This document shows, piece after piece, positions 53,502 through 59,261 of a DNA stretch of 64,000 nt (its first letter is position 1; each line of letters begins with the position of its first letter). Both the position numbers and the translations under genes were made by a program. Origin of the DNA: an uncultured Pseudomonadota bacterium. Lineage in GTDB: Bacteria; Myxococcota_A; UBA796; GCA-2862545. Under the pieces are notes generated by a model. It worked only from the letters and a program-made list of their open reading frames with translations, had not been told where the DNA came from and did no database searches. The stretch spans positions 124,001 to 188,000 of the forward strand of contig CAJXTB010000003.1 of assembly GCA_913061235.1 (NCBI GenBank). Reading direction: 5' to 3'.

Positions 53502-53819
53502 CTAGACGTGCAGACGTCTGTGGAGCTTGCGATTTTCGCGCTCGACTGCCGCATTCGCGAGCATGGGCGACATGATCATAAACGCCACCCAGGTCAATGG
53601 CGTGGTTACCACACCAATGACCACGAACATCAGCAGGATGTTGAAGAACAGCGCCACCCAGTAGCCGAACATGAGCGCCAAACCCACGCCAACGTTGCCA
53701 GCAACGATATTGCCAATGCCAAAGGTCTGAAACAGGAAGCCGCCAAGCAGCTCTAGAATGACGGGAACACCGGGACTCTTCTTCAAGACCTCGTACTGGA
53801 ATGCGGAATCCTGGGCCAT
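53502..53819 (-). CDS. TM2-like small membrane protein
   Basis: A 105-residue protein with three hydrophobic stretches, GVPVILELLGGFLFQTFGIG, GVGLALMFGYWVALFFNILL and MFVVIGVVTTPLTWVAFMIM. A polar N-terminus (MAQDSAFQYEVLKKSP) and a basic C-terminus (ERENRKLHRRLHV) flank them. The G-F-x2-Q-x-F-G-I-G-x2-x-A-G pattern resembles TM2-domain proteins. Function unknown. It converges on the Stf0 gene with a 12-bp gap. Confidence 0.7.
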   Translation of the reverse strand: MAQDSAFQYEVLKKSPGVPVILELLGGFLFQTFGIGNIVAGNVGVGLALMFGYWVALFFNILLMFVVIGVVTTPLTWVAFMIMSPMLANAAVERENRKLHRRLHV

Positions 53820-54125: not shown

Positions 54126-56165
54126 TCAGCCGCGTCGGAACAATGCAGAAGCACCCACGTCCTCGTGAACTTCGGCGCGAATACTCGCGGGCAGCTTCAC
54201 CGTGAAGACCGCGCCGCAGCCAGGTCCTTCACTGTTGCCAACCAGGGACCCACCCATCTCTTTGGCCGCAATAGCCGAGCTGTGAAGGCCGAAGCCATGC
54301 CCATCCCGGCGAGATGTGAAGCCATGGTTGAACACCCGGTCTAGATTCTCGGGCCCAATACCAACCCCGCTGTCCTTGATGTGAATGGTCAGGCCATCCG
54401 TGTCCGACCAGAGCAGCTCAGCCACCAGCTCTCGTTTGCCGTCGCCTTCCTTGATGGCATGTTTCGCATTGGTGATGAGGTTGATGAGGATCTGTAGCAT
54501 CTTGTGGCGATCAACCACCACTTCCGGAGCCTCGTCAAACTCTCGAATCACAGCAATGTCATGCTTGCGGAACGACTCACTATCAATACCAAGCGCTTCT
54601 TCGACCATGTCCACCGGTGAGCAGCGTTCGGTCACACCACCCGCGCGTGCCAGCGACTGCTGCATCACCACAATCTGCTTGATGTGATCGATGTGATTTC
54701 GCAGACCGTCGACTTCCTGAACGAGCTCGTCGCGCTCTTCTTGAAGCGTAGTGGCGAGTTTATTGAGGTAGGTCGGTAGAAGTCGGCCGCGAGGGTCACT
54801 ACTGGCGAACACACCAAAGTCCGGTTGTTCACCAACAAGCTGGGCAAGTCGCCCAACGGCCTCTCCACGTGAGTTCTTCAGCCTGTCGCACAGGAAGGTG
54901 GCACTCACATTGACGCTGTTGAGCACGTTTCCGACGTTGTGCAGCACCCCAGTAGCCACCTCCGCCATACCCGCACGGCGCGAGGCTTCCCGAAGTTGGG
55001 TGTTCAGCGTCTCGCGCTCTGCCTCCGCCCGGCGTCGTTCGGTGACGTCGGCCACCGTTCCCGCTCGGCTTCCGGCGAGGTCTGACGGAGACGCCGCAAA
55101 GTGCAGCCAGCGAATACCCAGTGGCCCCAAATCAAGCTCAAATTCACGGCTCCATCCGGCGCTGTCGACACTCGCCCAACACGACCGCAGCCAGCGTTGG
55201 TCGGCACGACTCAGCCGACGGGACCAGCCGTAGCCCATCACATCATCTCGGGTTGCCGAGAACATCTCCAGTAACCGGGGGTTGCAGTAGACAAACCGCC
55301 CGGCCACATCTACCTGGAAGATGCCGAGCGGGGCTGCAGTGGACAACGAGCGGAACCGCTCCTCACTGACTCTGAGCGAGCCAGCCGAGAGCTCTGCGGC
55401 TTCCTTCGCGCGCGCAAGGTCCCGTGTACGCTGACGAACGCGCACTTCAAGACGGGTTCGGCTCTCCACCAGGGCTTGGTCTCGCGCCTCAATCTCGTTG
55501 AGCATGTAGTTGACGGTGTCCACCAAGTCCCCAATCTCATCGCGAGACTGCCGCTGGACACGCACGCTGTAGTCGCCTTCGTTGCCGACACGAGCCAGGT
55601 CTTGCGACAGGGTCCGAATCGGGTCGACAAGCGACCTAGACAGCCGGTTACCAGCCAAGAACGCTAGAAACAACGCCAACACGAACACCACGCAAGCCAT
55701 GATTCCGTACTGGCGCATTTGTTCAGCGACAACGACAGCATCCGCGGCAATCACAATGTGGCCAATCTGCTCCCCATCGTGAATCAACGGCTCTACGTAC
55801 GAAATCAGGCCCTGTGAGCGCTGCAGCCCGTCTGCTCCAGGCTCGACGGGGGCGGGACGGTCAGGCTGACGGGCGTAGCTCGCGACAATCGCGCCTTGCT
55901 CGTCGTACAGGGCAGCGAACAGCATCCGGGGGTCCGCGCCAAGACCCTGGAGAAGCGTCTCTCCCCCCTCCACATCTTCAAACAGGACGACAGCAGCCGC
56001 ATTGCCTTCGAGGATGGCCGCCTGGACCTGAAGGTCTCGGGCGACGCCAGAGCGGTGTGCCATGACGCGCATGCCAAAGAACAACAAACAGGCGCACAAG
56101 AGCGCTAGTAGAGTGGTCGCAGCCATCGACAAGAAGACGCGATGCCGAAAGGACAAGCGGTTCAT
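54126..56165 (-). CDS. CHASE8-HAMP-PAS sensor histidine kinase
   Basis: A 679-residue membrane kinase. Helices at 8-32 and 153-172 flank a periplasmic domain whose GNAAAVVLFEDVEGGETLLQ and MLFAALYDEQGAIVASYAR resemble CHASE8, the sensor of YfiN-type proteins. HAMP (about 173-228), a coiled coil and a PAS domain (about 265-378) follow. The H-box is GVLHNVGNVLNSVN with His409; the ATPase domain has NLITNAKHAIKE, DSGVGIGPENLDRVF and RDGHGFGLHSSA. The start overlaps the YfiR-like stop by four bases. No receiver domain is fused and no response regulator gene is in the window. Confidence 0.92.
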   Translation of the reverse strand: MNRLSFRHRVFLSMAATTLLALLCACLLFFGMRVMAHRSGVARDLQVQAAILEGNAAAVVLFEDVEGGETLLQGLGADPRMLFAALYDEQGAIVASYARQPDRPAPVEPGADGLQRSQGLISYVEPLIHDGEQIGHIVIAADAVVVAEQMRQYGIMACVVFVLALFLAFLAGNRLSRSLVDPIRTLSQDLARVGNEGDYSVRVQRQSRDEIGDLVDTVNYMLNEIEARDQALVESRTRLEVRVRQRTRDLARAKEAAELSAGSLRVSEERFRSLSTAAPLGIFQVDVAGRFVYCNPRLLEMFSATRDDVMGYGWSRRLSRADQRWLRSCWASVDSAGWSREFELDLGPLGIRWLHFAASPSDLAGSRAGTVADVTERRRAEAERETLNTQLREASRRAGMAEVATGVLHNVGNVLNSVNVSATFLCDRLKNSRGEAVGRLAQLVGEQPDFGVFASSDPRGRLLPTYLNKLATTLQEERDELVQEVDGLRNHIDHIKQIVVMQQSLARAGGVTERCSPVDMVEEALGIDSESFRKHDIAVIREFDEAPEVVVDRHKMLQILINLITNAKHAIKEGDGKRELVAELLWSDTDGLTIHIKDSGVGIGPENLDRVFNHGFTSRRDGHGFGLHSSAIAAKEMGGSLVGNSEGPGCGAVFTVKLPASIRAEVHEDVGASALFRRG

Positions 56166-56710
56166 CGCACCACCGCCAAGCGGAGCAGCTGACTCGACAG
56201 GTCCATCCCCGTCGCTTCTGCAACACCTCGGTCCACGGTGACAACGGGTCGAGCATCCGCTCCCAACGACACACTAATCGCGACACCATGGGGTTCGTGG
56301 CCGTGTCCAAGCGTAAAGTAGCCGCTACGGACCGCATCTTCGGCTATCGCCGGTATCCACGAGTCTGTGCCAGGAAGCACAAGTACGGCGTCGGGGTGAT
56401 GGGACTCAATCTCTTCGTCCCACGACACCATTGTGCGGAGGTCTACCTCCACAATCTTCAGGTCCGCGCCACCCAAGCGCATGCCGGAGAGCCGGGCACG
56501 TTCCGCTTGATTGCTCCGCAACGTCTCCATGCTCTCGGCATCGCGAGAGTTGTAGGCAATCAGCAAGGTGGCTTCCGCCCCCACTCTGTCCGAGAGGTTC
56601 CGGTCGAAAGACGCGGCTCGCAGCAGCACGCGCATGCACACATCTGCACGTGGTGGCGCTCCTGCTAGACACAAGACAACCGCAACGACCAACGGAAACA
56701 GGCGCTTCAC
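56162..56710 (-). CDS. YfiR/DUF4154 family periplasmic protein
   Basis: A 182-residue protein with a signal peptide (LVVAVVLCLAGAPPRADV). The segment MRVLLRAASFDRNLSDRVGA, then ATLLIAYN, and the C-terminal pattern GVAISVSLGADARPVVTVDR, then GMDLSSQLLRLAVV, match the DUF4154/YfiR family, in which the ending is N/D-R-x2-A-x2-x-G-x2-F/L-S-S-x-L-L-R-L-A. YfiR inhibits the CHASE8 sensor of YfiN in Pseudomonas. Here it lies between a TonB receptor (four-base overlap) and a CHASE8 kinase (four-base overlap), which supports a switch role. Confidence 0.85.
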   Translation of the reverse strand: MKRLFPLVVAVVLCLAGAPPRADVCMRVLLRAASFDRNLSDRVGAEATLLIAYNSRDAESMETLRSNQAERARLSGMRLGGADLKIVEVDLRTMVSWDEEIESHHPDAVLVLPGTDSWIPAIAEDAVRSGYFTLGHGHEPHGVAISVSLGADARPVVTVDRGVAEATGMDLSSQLLRLAVVR

Positions 56711-58638
56711 TCGCGCACCATCAGCGTCACCATCACGCGTGTTCCAAGAGGGGCCGCGCCTGGCAGCGGAGACTGGCGCGTGCTCGGCACATTGGTCTCT
56801 GCAAGAGCGCCAACGGACACAATGCCGTCCCGACCGGGTGTGTAGTGAACCTCACTCCCCATCCGAGCCATGGCCGGGATGTTGGTGGTAATCCGCTGCA
56901 CCGGCAGCCCAACAGCCGTGTCGAAACGACGCGCGGACATCCAGTCTGCCGATACGCCGTAGCGCACCCGTCCAACCTCACCACGCACAGATGCGGACGC
57001 AGTAAAGCGGCTGTTTTGCTCAGGGACGCCCACCGTCTGGGACGTGTCGACGGGGTCAGCAATGTGCATCGCGGTGAACGCCATGCGTGGGACGAACGTG
57101 GTGTCGCGCTCCCAGGAAGCCTCAACCTCTACGCCCACCGTGTCCAGCCAACGTTCGGACTGTACCGAGTGAAAGCTCTTGAAGACGAAGGGACTGCTGT
57201 CTTGGCTAATGAGCGAGTCGAAGCTACCAACAAACACCGTAGGGCGGAACGCCAAACCATAGGACGAGGCGTACACCATGGCCGCCTCGATACTGGTGTT
57301 GCGTTGCGGTTGCAGCTCGGCCTCACCCTCTAGGAGAATGACGTTGTCGGCTGGGTCGCGGAAGCGAGACGCCGCCTCAATCCACGAGGGGCGACGGTAG
57401 GCACTGCCCCCAGACACCCGGAACAAGGTCTGTTCGGTGAACTGTAGCTGAACACTCGACCGCCAAGACCCTCGGGTTCCCGTCAATACGTGGTTGTCCA
57501 CACGGTAACCAGCATCGACCAACCAGCGCTCGCCCAGCGGCTGAGCCCATGTACCGCGGACATGACCATGCGCGAAAAAGTCACCGCCGGCAGGCAGGTA
57601 AGGCGCAGACACACGGTCCGTACCGAAGCCTGAAGCAGCGATAACAGAGCCACCAGCGGGTAAGTTCAAGCGTAGAGTCGCGGTCGCGTGCCCACCCGCT
57701 TCCTGCGTTTCGTCTTGAGTAGGAGTGAGTGCCTCGCCAAGCAATGACGTCTGTCGCGCGACGTACCCCCCCTCGAGCGACAGGCTGTCTACAAACGTGC
57801 CAACCGTGTAGGTGGTACCCGCAGTGAGCATCGTTGTGGGCTCAACGTAGTGAACGCGGTTCGCCACAACCGCGTTCTCACCCCTGCGCATATCCAACGT
57901 CCATGCAAGCCGCGCAGACCCCGACCAGCGGCCCTTCGGATTGAACAGCATCGACACGTCTGTACCGAGACCTCCAATCCGCTGCCCCGCCTGGCGGTTC
58001 GACGTCGTCCGTACATCATTCCCACGTACGTTCACCCGCCACGACAGTAGGTCGCCACCACCCCCACCCGAGGCCCAGATTAGGCGCTCAAACAGTCGCT
58101 CGGAGCGCCCACCAAAGGTCACCCCCGCCATAGGACGTGGGTCGGATGGGTCGGTGATAATGTTGACCACTGCAGATGACGCATTCGCACCGTACAGCGT
58201 ACTCAATGGACCGCGAATGACCTCAATTCGGTCGATTTGGTGCAACCCCATCGGCAGGCCACTCCACCGGACAGAACCGTCCGCCAGGGTGTTCATGGGG
58301 CCACCGTCCACAAGGACCAAGACGTTGTTGTCTTGAAGGCCGCCAAACCCCCGTGCGGCAACCACAAAGTTCCCAGGAGAGACTTCCACGACCTGCAGCC
58401 CCGGAACTCGTCGAAGCAGATCAGGGATGCTCGCTACGCCCGACAGCGCAATGTCTTCATGAGACAGCACAGTCACAGACGCCGGGGCATTCGCCGTCGT
58501 ACGCTCATGGTCTGACTCGGTAACCACCACTTGCAGCAAGCCTTCGAGATCCCAGTCCTCGATGTCGTCATCGCCGGCGAACGCCAACGGACTCCAGACT
58601 CCGACAAGGAGGGCGGCAACAGTGGATACAACGCGCAT
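56707..58638 (-). CDS. TonB-dependent receptor
   Basis: A 643-residue outer membrane receptor. A signal peptide (MRVVSTVAALLVGVWSPLAFA) is followed by an acidic linker and a plug domain with APASVTVLSHEDIALSGVAS, DLLRRVPGLQVVEV, RGFGGLQDNNVLVLVDGGPM and IDRIEVIRGPLSTLYGANAS. The remaining 480 residues form the barrel, ending in MVTLMVRE. Strand LSRPS-like NSYRRPSW (here SAYRRPSWIEAA) is the usual conserved barrel motif. No siderophore or vitamin gene is close. It begins the receptor-YfiR-kinase operon, so its ligand may feed into signalling. Confidence 0.93.
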   Translation of the reverse strand: MRVVSTVAALLVGVWSPLAFAGDDDIEDWDLEGLLQVVVTESDHERTTANAPASVTVLSHEDIALSGVASIPDLLRRVPGLQVVEVSPGNFVVAARGFGGLQDNNVLVLVDGGPMNTLADGSVRWSGLPMGLHQIDRIEVIRGPLSTLYGANASSAVVNIITDPSDPRPMAGVTFGGRSERLFERLIWASGGGGGDLLSWRVNVRGNDVRTTSNRQAGQRIGGLGTDVSMLFNPKGRWSGSARLAWTLDMRRGENAVVANRVHYVEPTTMLTAGTTYTVGTFVDSLSLEGGYVARQTSLLGEALTPTQDETQEAGGHATATLRLNLPAGGSVIAASGFGTDRVSAPYLPAGGDFFAHGHVRGTWAQPLGERWLVDAGYRVDNHVLTGTRGSWRSSVQLQFTEQTLFRVSGGSAYRRPSWIEAASRFRDPADNVILLEGEAELQPQRNTSIEAAMVYASSYGLAFRPTVFVGSFDSLISQDSSPFVFKSFHSVQSERWLDTVGVEVEASWERDTTFVPRMAFTAMHIADPVDTSQTVGVPEQNSRFTASASVRGEVGRVRYGVSADWMSARRFDTAVGLPVQRITTNIPAMARMGSEVHYTPGRDGIVSVGALAETNVPSTRQSPLPGAAPLGTRVMVTLMVRE

Positions 58639-58718
58639 GTGTTCCCAATCGGCAATCGCGCGGAGAAATGAAGCTTAAGTTTTGCAGCGATCTGAACGAC
58701 TCAGGACTCGGAGGGGTC

Positions 58719-59261
58719 ATGCGTTGGATTGCACTAGTGGGACTCGGGGCGTGCGCGGAACTACCACCACTGCCGGACGTCGACGCAGGTCCAGACTGGA
58801 CCTGTGACGACGGATTCATCGAGGCCGTACAAGCGTGTGAGGCGTCGGAATGCTCTGGCTTCATGGCCATGAACAGCCTTGTCGACGCCGAGAACGTCCG
58901 CTTCGTCTCGAACTCCGCCCACGCCGTCGTCAAGTTCGGAGACACCGACTCCATTGAGACGATTGAACTGCACAGTACGACCGACTACTTCCGCAGCGTG
59001 GTCACCATCAGCAGCATTGGCTTGCACCCGGGCGGCACACCCATCCCCTACCGGGTCCTCACGCGAGAATTTGCAGAAGCCTACAGCGACGCAGTCACCT
59101 TGCAGTGGGATGCATCGAACTCGGAAATCCCACAGATGATGATCGGCGTCAGTGGTCTGTCAAGCATTGACGTCAGGGACGACTGGGTTCGCGTCACCTT
59201 CCTTGTGACCGACCAACATGACGAGCTCCTACAGGGGTGCGCCTACATCCCGTTGGACTGA
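58719..59261 (+). CDS. Hypothetical lipoprotein
   Basis: A 180-residue protein that I do not recognise. ATG 58719 with GGAGGGG upstream gives MRWIALVGLGACAELPP, a short lipoprotein signal. Four cysteines in the first third (WTCDD, QACEASEC) suggest disulfides. The rest is beta-rich and polar with no motif. It is divergent from the TonB receptor gene and converges on another lipoprotein gene, overlapping it by 19 bases. Confidence 0.7.
   Translation: MRWIALVGLGACAELPPLPDVDAGPDWTCDDGFIEAVQACEASECSGFMAMNSLVDAENVRFVSNSAHAVVKFGDTDSIETIELHSTTDYFRSVVTISSIGLHPGGTPIPYRVLTREFAEAYSDAVTLQWDASNSEIPQMMIGVSGLSSIDVRDDWVRVTFLVTDQHDELLQGCAYIPLD

Follow-up and report, generated by a model that had tools for sequence, protein, structure and literature searches.

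In this study, we analyzed a DNA stretch of 64,000 nucleotides from an uncultured Pseudomonadota bacterium, of Myxococcota type in the GTDB lineage (Myxococcota_A) (the window; GenBank assembly GCA_913061235.1, contig CAJXTB010000003.1, positions 124,001 to 188,000). We found that three of its genes, which encode a TonB-dependent outer-membrane receptor, a YfiR-like periplasmic protein and a sensor histidine kinase with a CHASE8 domain, very likely make up a single unit that signals across the envelope and belongs to the modular YfiR-CHASE8 kind. On the minus strand, from 58638 to 54126, the order is receptor, YfiR-like protein and kinase, and neighbouring genes overlap by four bases (56707-56710 and 56162-56165). 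An earlier sequence-only reading of the window had described this arrangement, and its coordinates, strand and both overlaps were borne out. The three genes are:

56707..58638, minus strand: TonB-dependent outer-membrane receptor (643 residues; signal peptide, Plug at residues 49-157, barrel)
56162..56710, minus strand: YfiR-like soluble periplasmic protein, P0002 (182 residues, GTG start; a divergent YfiR subfamily, for which we coined the name 'YDRNL' after its motif)
54126..56165, minus strand: CHASE8-HAMP-PAS-HATPase sensor histidine kinase (679 residues; domains from Pfam)

In the source genome (7.18 Mb, 99% complete), only one CHASE8 domain and one YfiR-family gene were detected, along with 15 receptor plugs, and the three trio genes adjoin. 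Because these components are so few in a genome of this size, adjacency by chance was excluded. The features of the protein sequences place the receptor in the outer membrane, the adaptor in the periplasm as a soluble protein and the CHASE8 kinase in the inner membrane. The sequence-only reading had also named a TonB-dependent receptor and a CHASE8 kinase, and both assignments were confirmed above the Pfam cut-offs: the receptor matched Plug (E 4.4e-21) and barrel (E 1.6e-10), and the kinase matched CHASE8 (49.2 bits versus a cut-off of 27) and HAMP (residues 174-226; 39.3 bits versus 25), with PAS (residues 269-379) and HATPase domains also matched. Membrane helices read from the kinase sequence flank the CHASE8 domain, and HAMP follows. 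The catalytic domain has its N box at residue 562, G1 at 598 and G2 at 624. The features of the kinase are as follows:

55749..56045, minus strand: CHASE8 periplasmic sensor domain, kinase residues 41-139 (PF17152, E 6.7e-13; the sole CHASE8 detected in the genome)
55980..56000, minus strand: AAAVVLF, kinase residues 56-62, ending in Phe62 (counterpart of the YfiN AAVVF YfiR-binding motif)
54939..54941, minus strand: predicted phospho-acceptor His409, within GVLHNVGNVLNS (from the sequence)
54186..54512, minus strand: HATPase_c catalytic domain, residues 552-660 (Pfam, E 4.2e-15)

In Pseudomonas YfiN, the AAVVF motif ending in Phe70 has been placed by genetics as the YfiR-binding site (PMC3375315). 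The Phe of this type of motif was retained in nearly all of the 59 CHASE8 proteins that we aligned.

The identity of the middle protein required more than a domain search. DUF4154 (PF13689; YfiR/HmsC-like), the family proposed in the sequence-only reading, reached 14.7 bits against a cut-off of 24.9 (E 0.033) and covered only the last ~38 residues; NCBIfam gave no match, and its model NF053591 does not detect the protein. Its relatives from other genomes have two motifs in common, RxLxYDRNLxxRA and a C-terminal GxxLxxxLLRLA. With a profile built from 26 classical YfiRs, most of the relatives were detected at values between 1e-5 and 1e-12 and the weakest at 2.4e-3; the window protein was detected at 7.6e-4, via its last 30 residues (values calculated for 1000 sequences). 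An AlphaFold2 model based on nine alignment rows was confident (predicted local distance difference test score 91.4, predicted template modelling score 0.88) and matched the Pseudomonas YfiR (PaYfiR) entries with Z ~13 and a root mean square deviation of 2.5-2.7 over 135-137 residues, compared with Z of at most 9.2 for unrelated rows. Based on the subfamily alignment, the detection of the relatives by the classical profile and the match of the fold model to Pseudomonas YfiR, the middle protein is assigned to the YfiR type as a member of the divergent YDRNL subfamily. The YfiR label of the earlier reading is right, although Pfam by itself does not reveal it. It should be noted that the model also matched a single-domain binding protein from Rhodothermus marinus (RmSBP; Z 13.6) and, at Z 14-15, the substrate-binding lobes 3lft, 6hni and 3lkv, so that such a modelled fold cannot tell YfiR from a single substrate-binding lobe. 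A sequence search of the PDB with the subfamily profile returned a DARPin and designed proteins, which were judged to be chance matches.

The trio recurs across the phylum in shuffled gene orders, as revealed from two independent starting points. From the kinase side, the CHASE8-HAMP model NF053592 (E <= 1e-30) found its region in 31 of 284 genomes of the phylum; among the 40 loci picked in this way (window excluded), a YfiR-type gene lay nearby in 28 and a receptor plug in 14. From the side of the YDRNL protein, ~29 separate loci were collected, with a receptor in ~24 and a CHASE8 protein in ~19. At the receptor density of the window genome, ~1 receptor per 40 stretches of 12 kb would be expected by chance. 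The order is kinase-YfiR-receptor in a genome of the same family (G014). In the genome G011, receptor, YfiR and kinase genes follow a pair of response-regulator genes, of which one has a LuxR-like end. A scan of named genomes with the single window YfiR-like protein gave no match, and a tighter YDRNL alignment yielded nine loci in them; among the named organisms with the YDRNL type are Archangium lansinium and a Latescibacterota metagenome-assembled genome. The outputs joined to CHASE8-HAMP were kinase, hybrid kinase, Hpt-CheA-like, methyl-accepting chemotaxis protein (MCP) and, rarely, GGDEF, and at three loci (L039, L056 and L057) a gene reading as REC-GGDEF-EAL lies upstream of the receptor.

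Several further arrangements were seen in the survey. Four CHASE8-HAMP proteins with Hpt-CheA-like outputs (L059, L061, L063 and L066) form a group of their own (support 100/100), and no YfiR-like gene or receptor was detected near them. At L130:4584-9759 of Archangium lansinium, a YfiR-like gene and a receptor adjoin a kinase with CHASE (PF03924), not CHASE8. At L118 (G007), a YfiR-like gene, a gene for a 651-residue exported-looking protein, a receptor gene and a REC-PAS-like gene stand in a row, with the 651-residue protein where the kinase usually lies. Nine YfiR-family matches, most of them without a nearby receptor, were found in G058, a genome of the phylum.

We also compared the phylogenies of the two periplasmic partners. 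YDRNL and classical YfiRs are split in the tree at 100/99 support, and 18 of the 19 CHASE8 partners of YDRNL proteins group together on one side of theirs (99/91). The YfiR and CHASE8 types thus co-segregate, in line with paired specificity; operon linkage by itself can also yield such congruence. The exception is the window, whose CHASE8 groups with the classical side in the best trees and whose YfiR-like protein is of the YDRNL type. We considered the window as a clear mosaic of the two types. This fits the best trees, but the alternatives survived approximately unbiased tests (p 0.15 and 0.29), and a mosaic origin is therefore regarded as possible. Taken together, the CHASE8 match, the conserved motif, the recurring trio and the co-segregating types support the earlier proposal that YfiNR-like periplasmic parts act here on a histidine kinase, and the suggestion of the sequence-only reading to look for the trio in other genomes showed that it is widespread and not confined to this one.

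A further shared feature was found in the N-terminal tail of the receptor:

58534..58551, minus strand: DLEGLL, receptor residues 30-35 ([DS]LExLL motif, just ahead of the TonB-box-like VVVT at residues 37-40)

A motif of the [DS]LExLL type, searched for with a looser pattern, lies between signal peptide and plug, beside the TonB box, in all 40 receptors of the collected loci. Among 85 receptors from eight genomes, the pattern was present in 8 of the 10 that have a YfiR gene nearby, compared with 6 of the 75 others (Fisher P 2.4e-6). Six of these 10 receptors came from the set that defined the motif and the other four scored 2/4; independent support for the enrichment is modest. In YfiB, Phe57 occupies a pocket of YfiR (PMC4887326), and by analogy the receptor tail motif may dock the YfiR-type adaptor.

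A response regulator elsewhere in the genome, which the sequence-only reading had proposed to search for, has a candidate. Kinases of the same HNVGNVLN type as the window kinase in three related trios (L044, L046 and L129) adjoin genes with one receiver subtype, and this subtype has one strong match in the genome of the window (52% identity, E 3e-54; contig 7, ~255132-256430). The protein encoded there is a candidate partner of the window kinase, as judged by sequence similarity. The receiver protein on contig 7 (L136:5133-6431) is of the D[LM]RMPPG subtype, and its receiver is followed by an apparent degenerate HATPase-like part without an N box.

The arrangement of receptor, YfiR and kinase is of a known kind, and the window copy is a divergent member of it. 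Malone et al. (2012) described YfiR-YfiN modules whose outputs are kinase, Hpt, MCP or GGDEF-EAL and which usually lack YfiB (PMC3375315), and three consecutive NCBIfam models (NF053590 TonB_dep_TOL0244, NF053591 YfiR_like_TOL0243 and NF053592 HK_near_YfiR_like) cover the components. The novelty implied by the sequence-only reading for a kinase output without YfiB is therefore not supported. The window resembles the modules of 2012 in combining YfiR with CHASE8-HAMP, in its kinase output, in the lack of an adjacent YfiB and in the conservation of the AAVVF-type motif; it differs in that the YfiR contact Phe162 is not conserved and in that a TonB receptor is not mentioned in that paper. With the NCBIfam trio, of the Thalassolituus oleivorans type, it shares the same three components, adjacent to one another, and NF053590 and NF053592 are the best NCBIfam matches of the receptor and of the kinase N-terminus. 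Compared with P. aeruginosa YfiBNR, the YfiR fold and a CHASE8-HAMP protein carrying the YfiR-binding motif are shared. The window differs in having a kinase (HATPase) in place of the GGDEF output and, at the outer membrane, a TonB receptor in place of the Pal-like lipoprotein YfiB; its YfiR-like protein also lacks the four cysteines conserved in PaYfiR. No OmpA/Pal protein (YfiB) was found by a Pfam scan of nine flanking genes; YfiB was not searched for in the remaining genome. Two of the flanking genes, one for a small membrane protein (53502-53819) and the other a divergent lipoprotein-like gene (58668-59261), had no Pfam match. In the library searched, we found no paper that describes a receptor as part of YfiR systems or joins YfiR to TonB receptors. 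What our analysis adds is the YDRNL subfamily, the pairing of YfiR and CHASE8 types, the receptor [DS]LExLL motif and the candidate receiver.

Two known proteins deserve separate comment. The namesake of NF053590, the receptor TOL_0244, was up sevenfold on a C28 alkane and resembles OmpS of Alcanivorax dieselolei, for which a link to chemotaxis and the sensing of alkanes has been described (PMC6304351). These data are taken as a lead to a ligand and nothing more, because TOL_0244 and the window receptor are only distantly related. RmSBP (5z6v, 6k1x) was the top Foldseek match of the window YfiR-like model (E 5e-8), although the sequence match is weak (E 0.16-0.25), and genes for single-domain binding proteins like it have been reported beside an MCP gene (PMC10805632), a neighbourhood that resembles the MCP-output cassettes of our survey. 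Based on the fold match and the reported neighbour, RmSBP may be the YfiR component of such a cassette.

How the unit works is less certain. We favour the view, at about even chances, that the receptor relays the status of its ligand through YfiR to the kinase, much as the sequence-only reading had proposed. The YfiR-like protein would bind the Phe62 patch of CHASE8 and lock the kinase in one signalling state. Upon occupancy of the receptor, or its energisation by TonB, the N-terminal receptor tail that faces the periplasm (DLEGLL beside the TonB box) and/or an imported ligand would alter the hold of YfiR, and the altered state would travel via HAMP and PAS to His409 and then to a receiver encoded elsewhere, for which the protein on contig 7 is the candidate. 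This detailed order, from receptor to YfiR, kinase and receiver, we consider slightly less than evenly probable, and only tentatively do we suggest the more specific and rather unlikely route in which the [DS]LExLL tail itself docks the adaptor, so that engagement by TonB or binding of a ligand is reported across the periplasm to exchangeable CHASE8 outputs (kinase, CheA-like or chemoreceptor). Several observations weigh against the relay. No response regulator is encoded next to the trio, and two kinases of the HNVGNVLN type are present in the genome, either of which could use the candidate receiver. The patch of Pseudomonas YfiR that matches the YfiN motif was placed by genetics around Phe162 (PMC3375315); the counterpart of this residue in the window protein is Val157, and the YDRNL subfamily shows Leu, Ile, Met or Val, mostly Leu or Ile, at this position (Phe in 0 of 28), compared with Phe in 21 of 27 classical YfiRs. 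All window proteins fall under the cut-offs of the NCBIfam trio (receptor, 130.7 of 645 bits; YfiR-like protein, no match; kinase, 163.7 of 194 bits). In addition, YfiR is missing beside some CHASE8 proteins, and CHASE8 is missing beside several YfiR-receptor pairs.

Other explanations have to be weighed against this relay. The receptor might import a small molecule without contacting YfiR, and the single-lobe YfiR-like protein would bind the ligand and present it to CHASE8, as LuxP does to LuxQ. The fold model suits this, as it matches substrate-binding lobes and RmSBP as well as it does YfiR; MCP-output versions would suit ligand sensing; and the pocket of PaYfiR that YfiB uses can also bind L-Trp and vitamin B6, but only in the tens of millimolar (PMC4887326). 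Such import would also leave the receptor-tail motif unexplained. We regard it as possible but on balance unlikely. A smaller probability is given to the receptor being merely a target or a co-transcribed transporter, with YfiR and kinase alone sensing the state of redox or folding in the periplasm. At many of the CHASE8-selected loci, YfiR is present and no receptor was detected nearby, and P. aeruginosa YfiR itself senses periplasmic redox without YfiB (PMC3375315). However, the YDRNL subfamily pairs YfiR with the receptor more tightly than with CHASE8, and the window YfiR-like protein has a single Cys (residue 25) outside its signal peptide and therefore no pair for an internal disulfide. 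Finally, the kinase might be independent of the middle protein, which would then be a small, unrelated protein of the periplasm. This would agree with the lack of an assignment by Pfam and NCBIfam, but the subfamily profile, the fold model and the conserved neighbourhood argue against it, and it is considered highly improbable.

If the relay operates as proposed, neither an STN domain nor an anti-sigma factor would be involved in linking the status of an outer-membrane receptor to kinases and chemoreceptors, and the tail-docking route, if true, would be a form of receptor signalling distinct from the FecA/FecR sigma-regulator route. The cassette is widespread, and its receptor-tail motif and paired YfiR/CHASE8 subtypes point to particular residues for mutation. 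A possible role for RmSBP, known as a crystal structure from Rhodothermus marinus, emerges from the survey as well.

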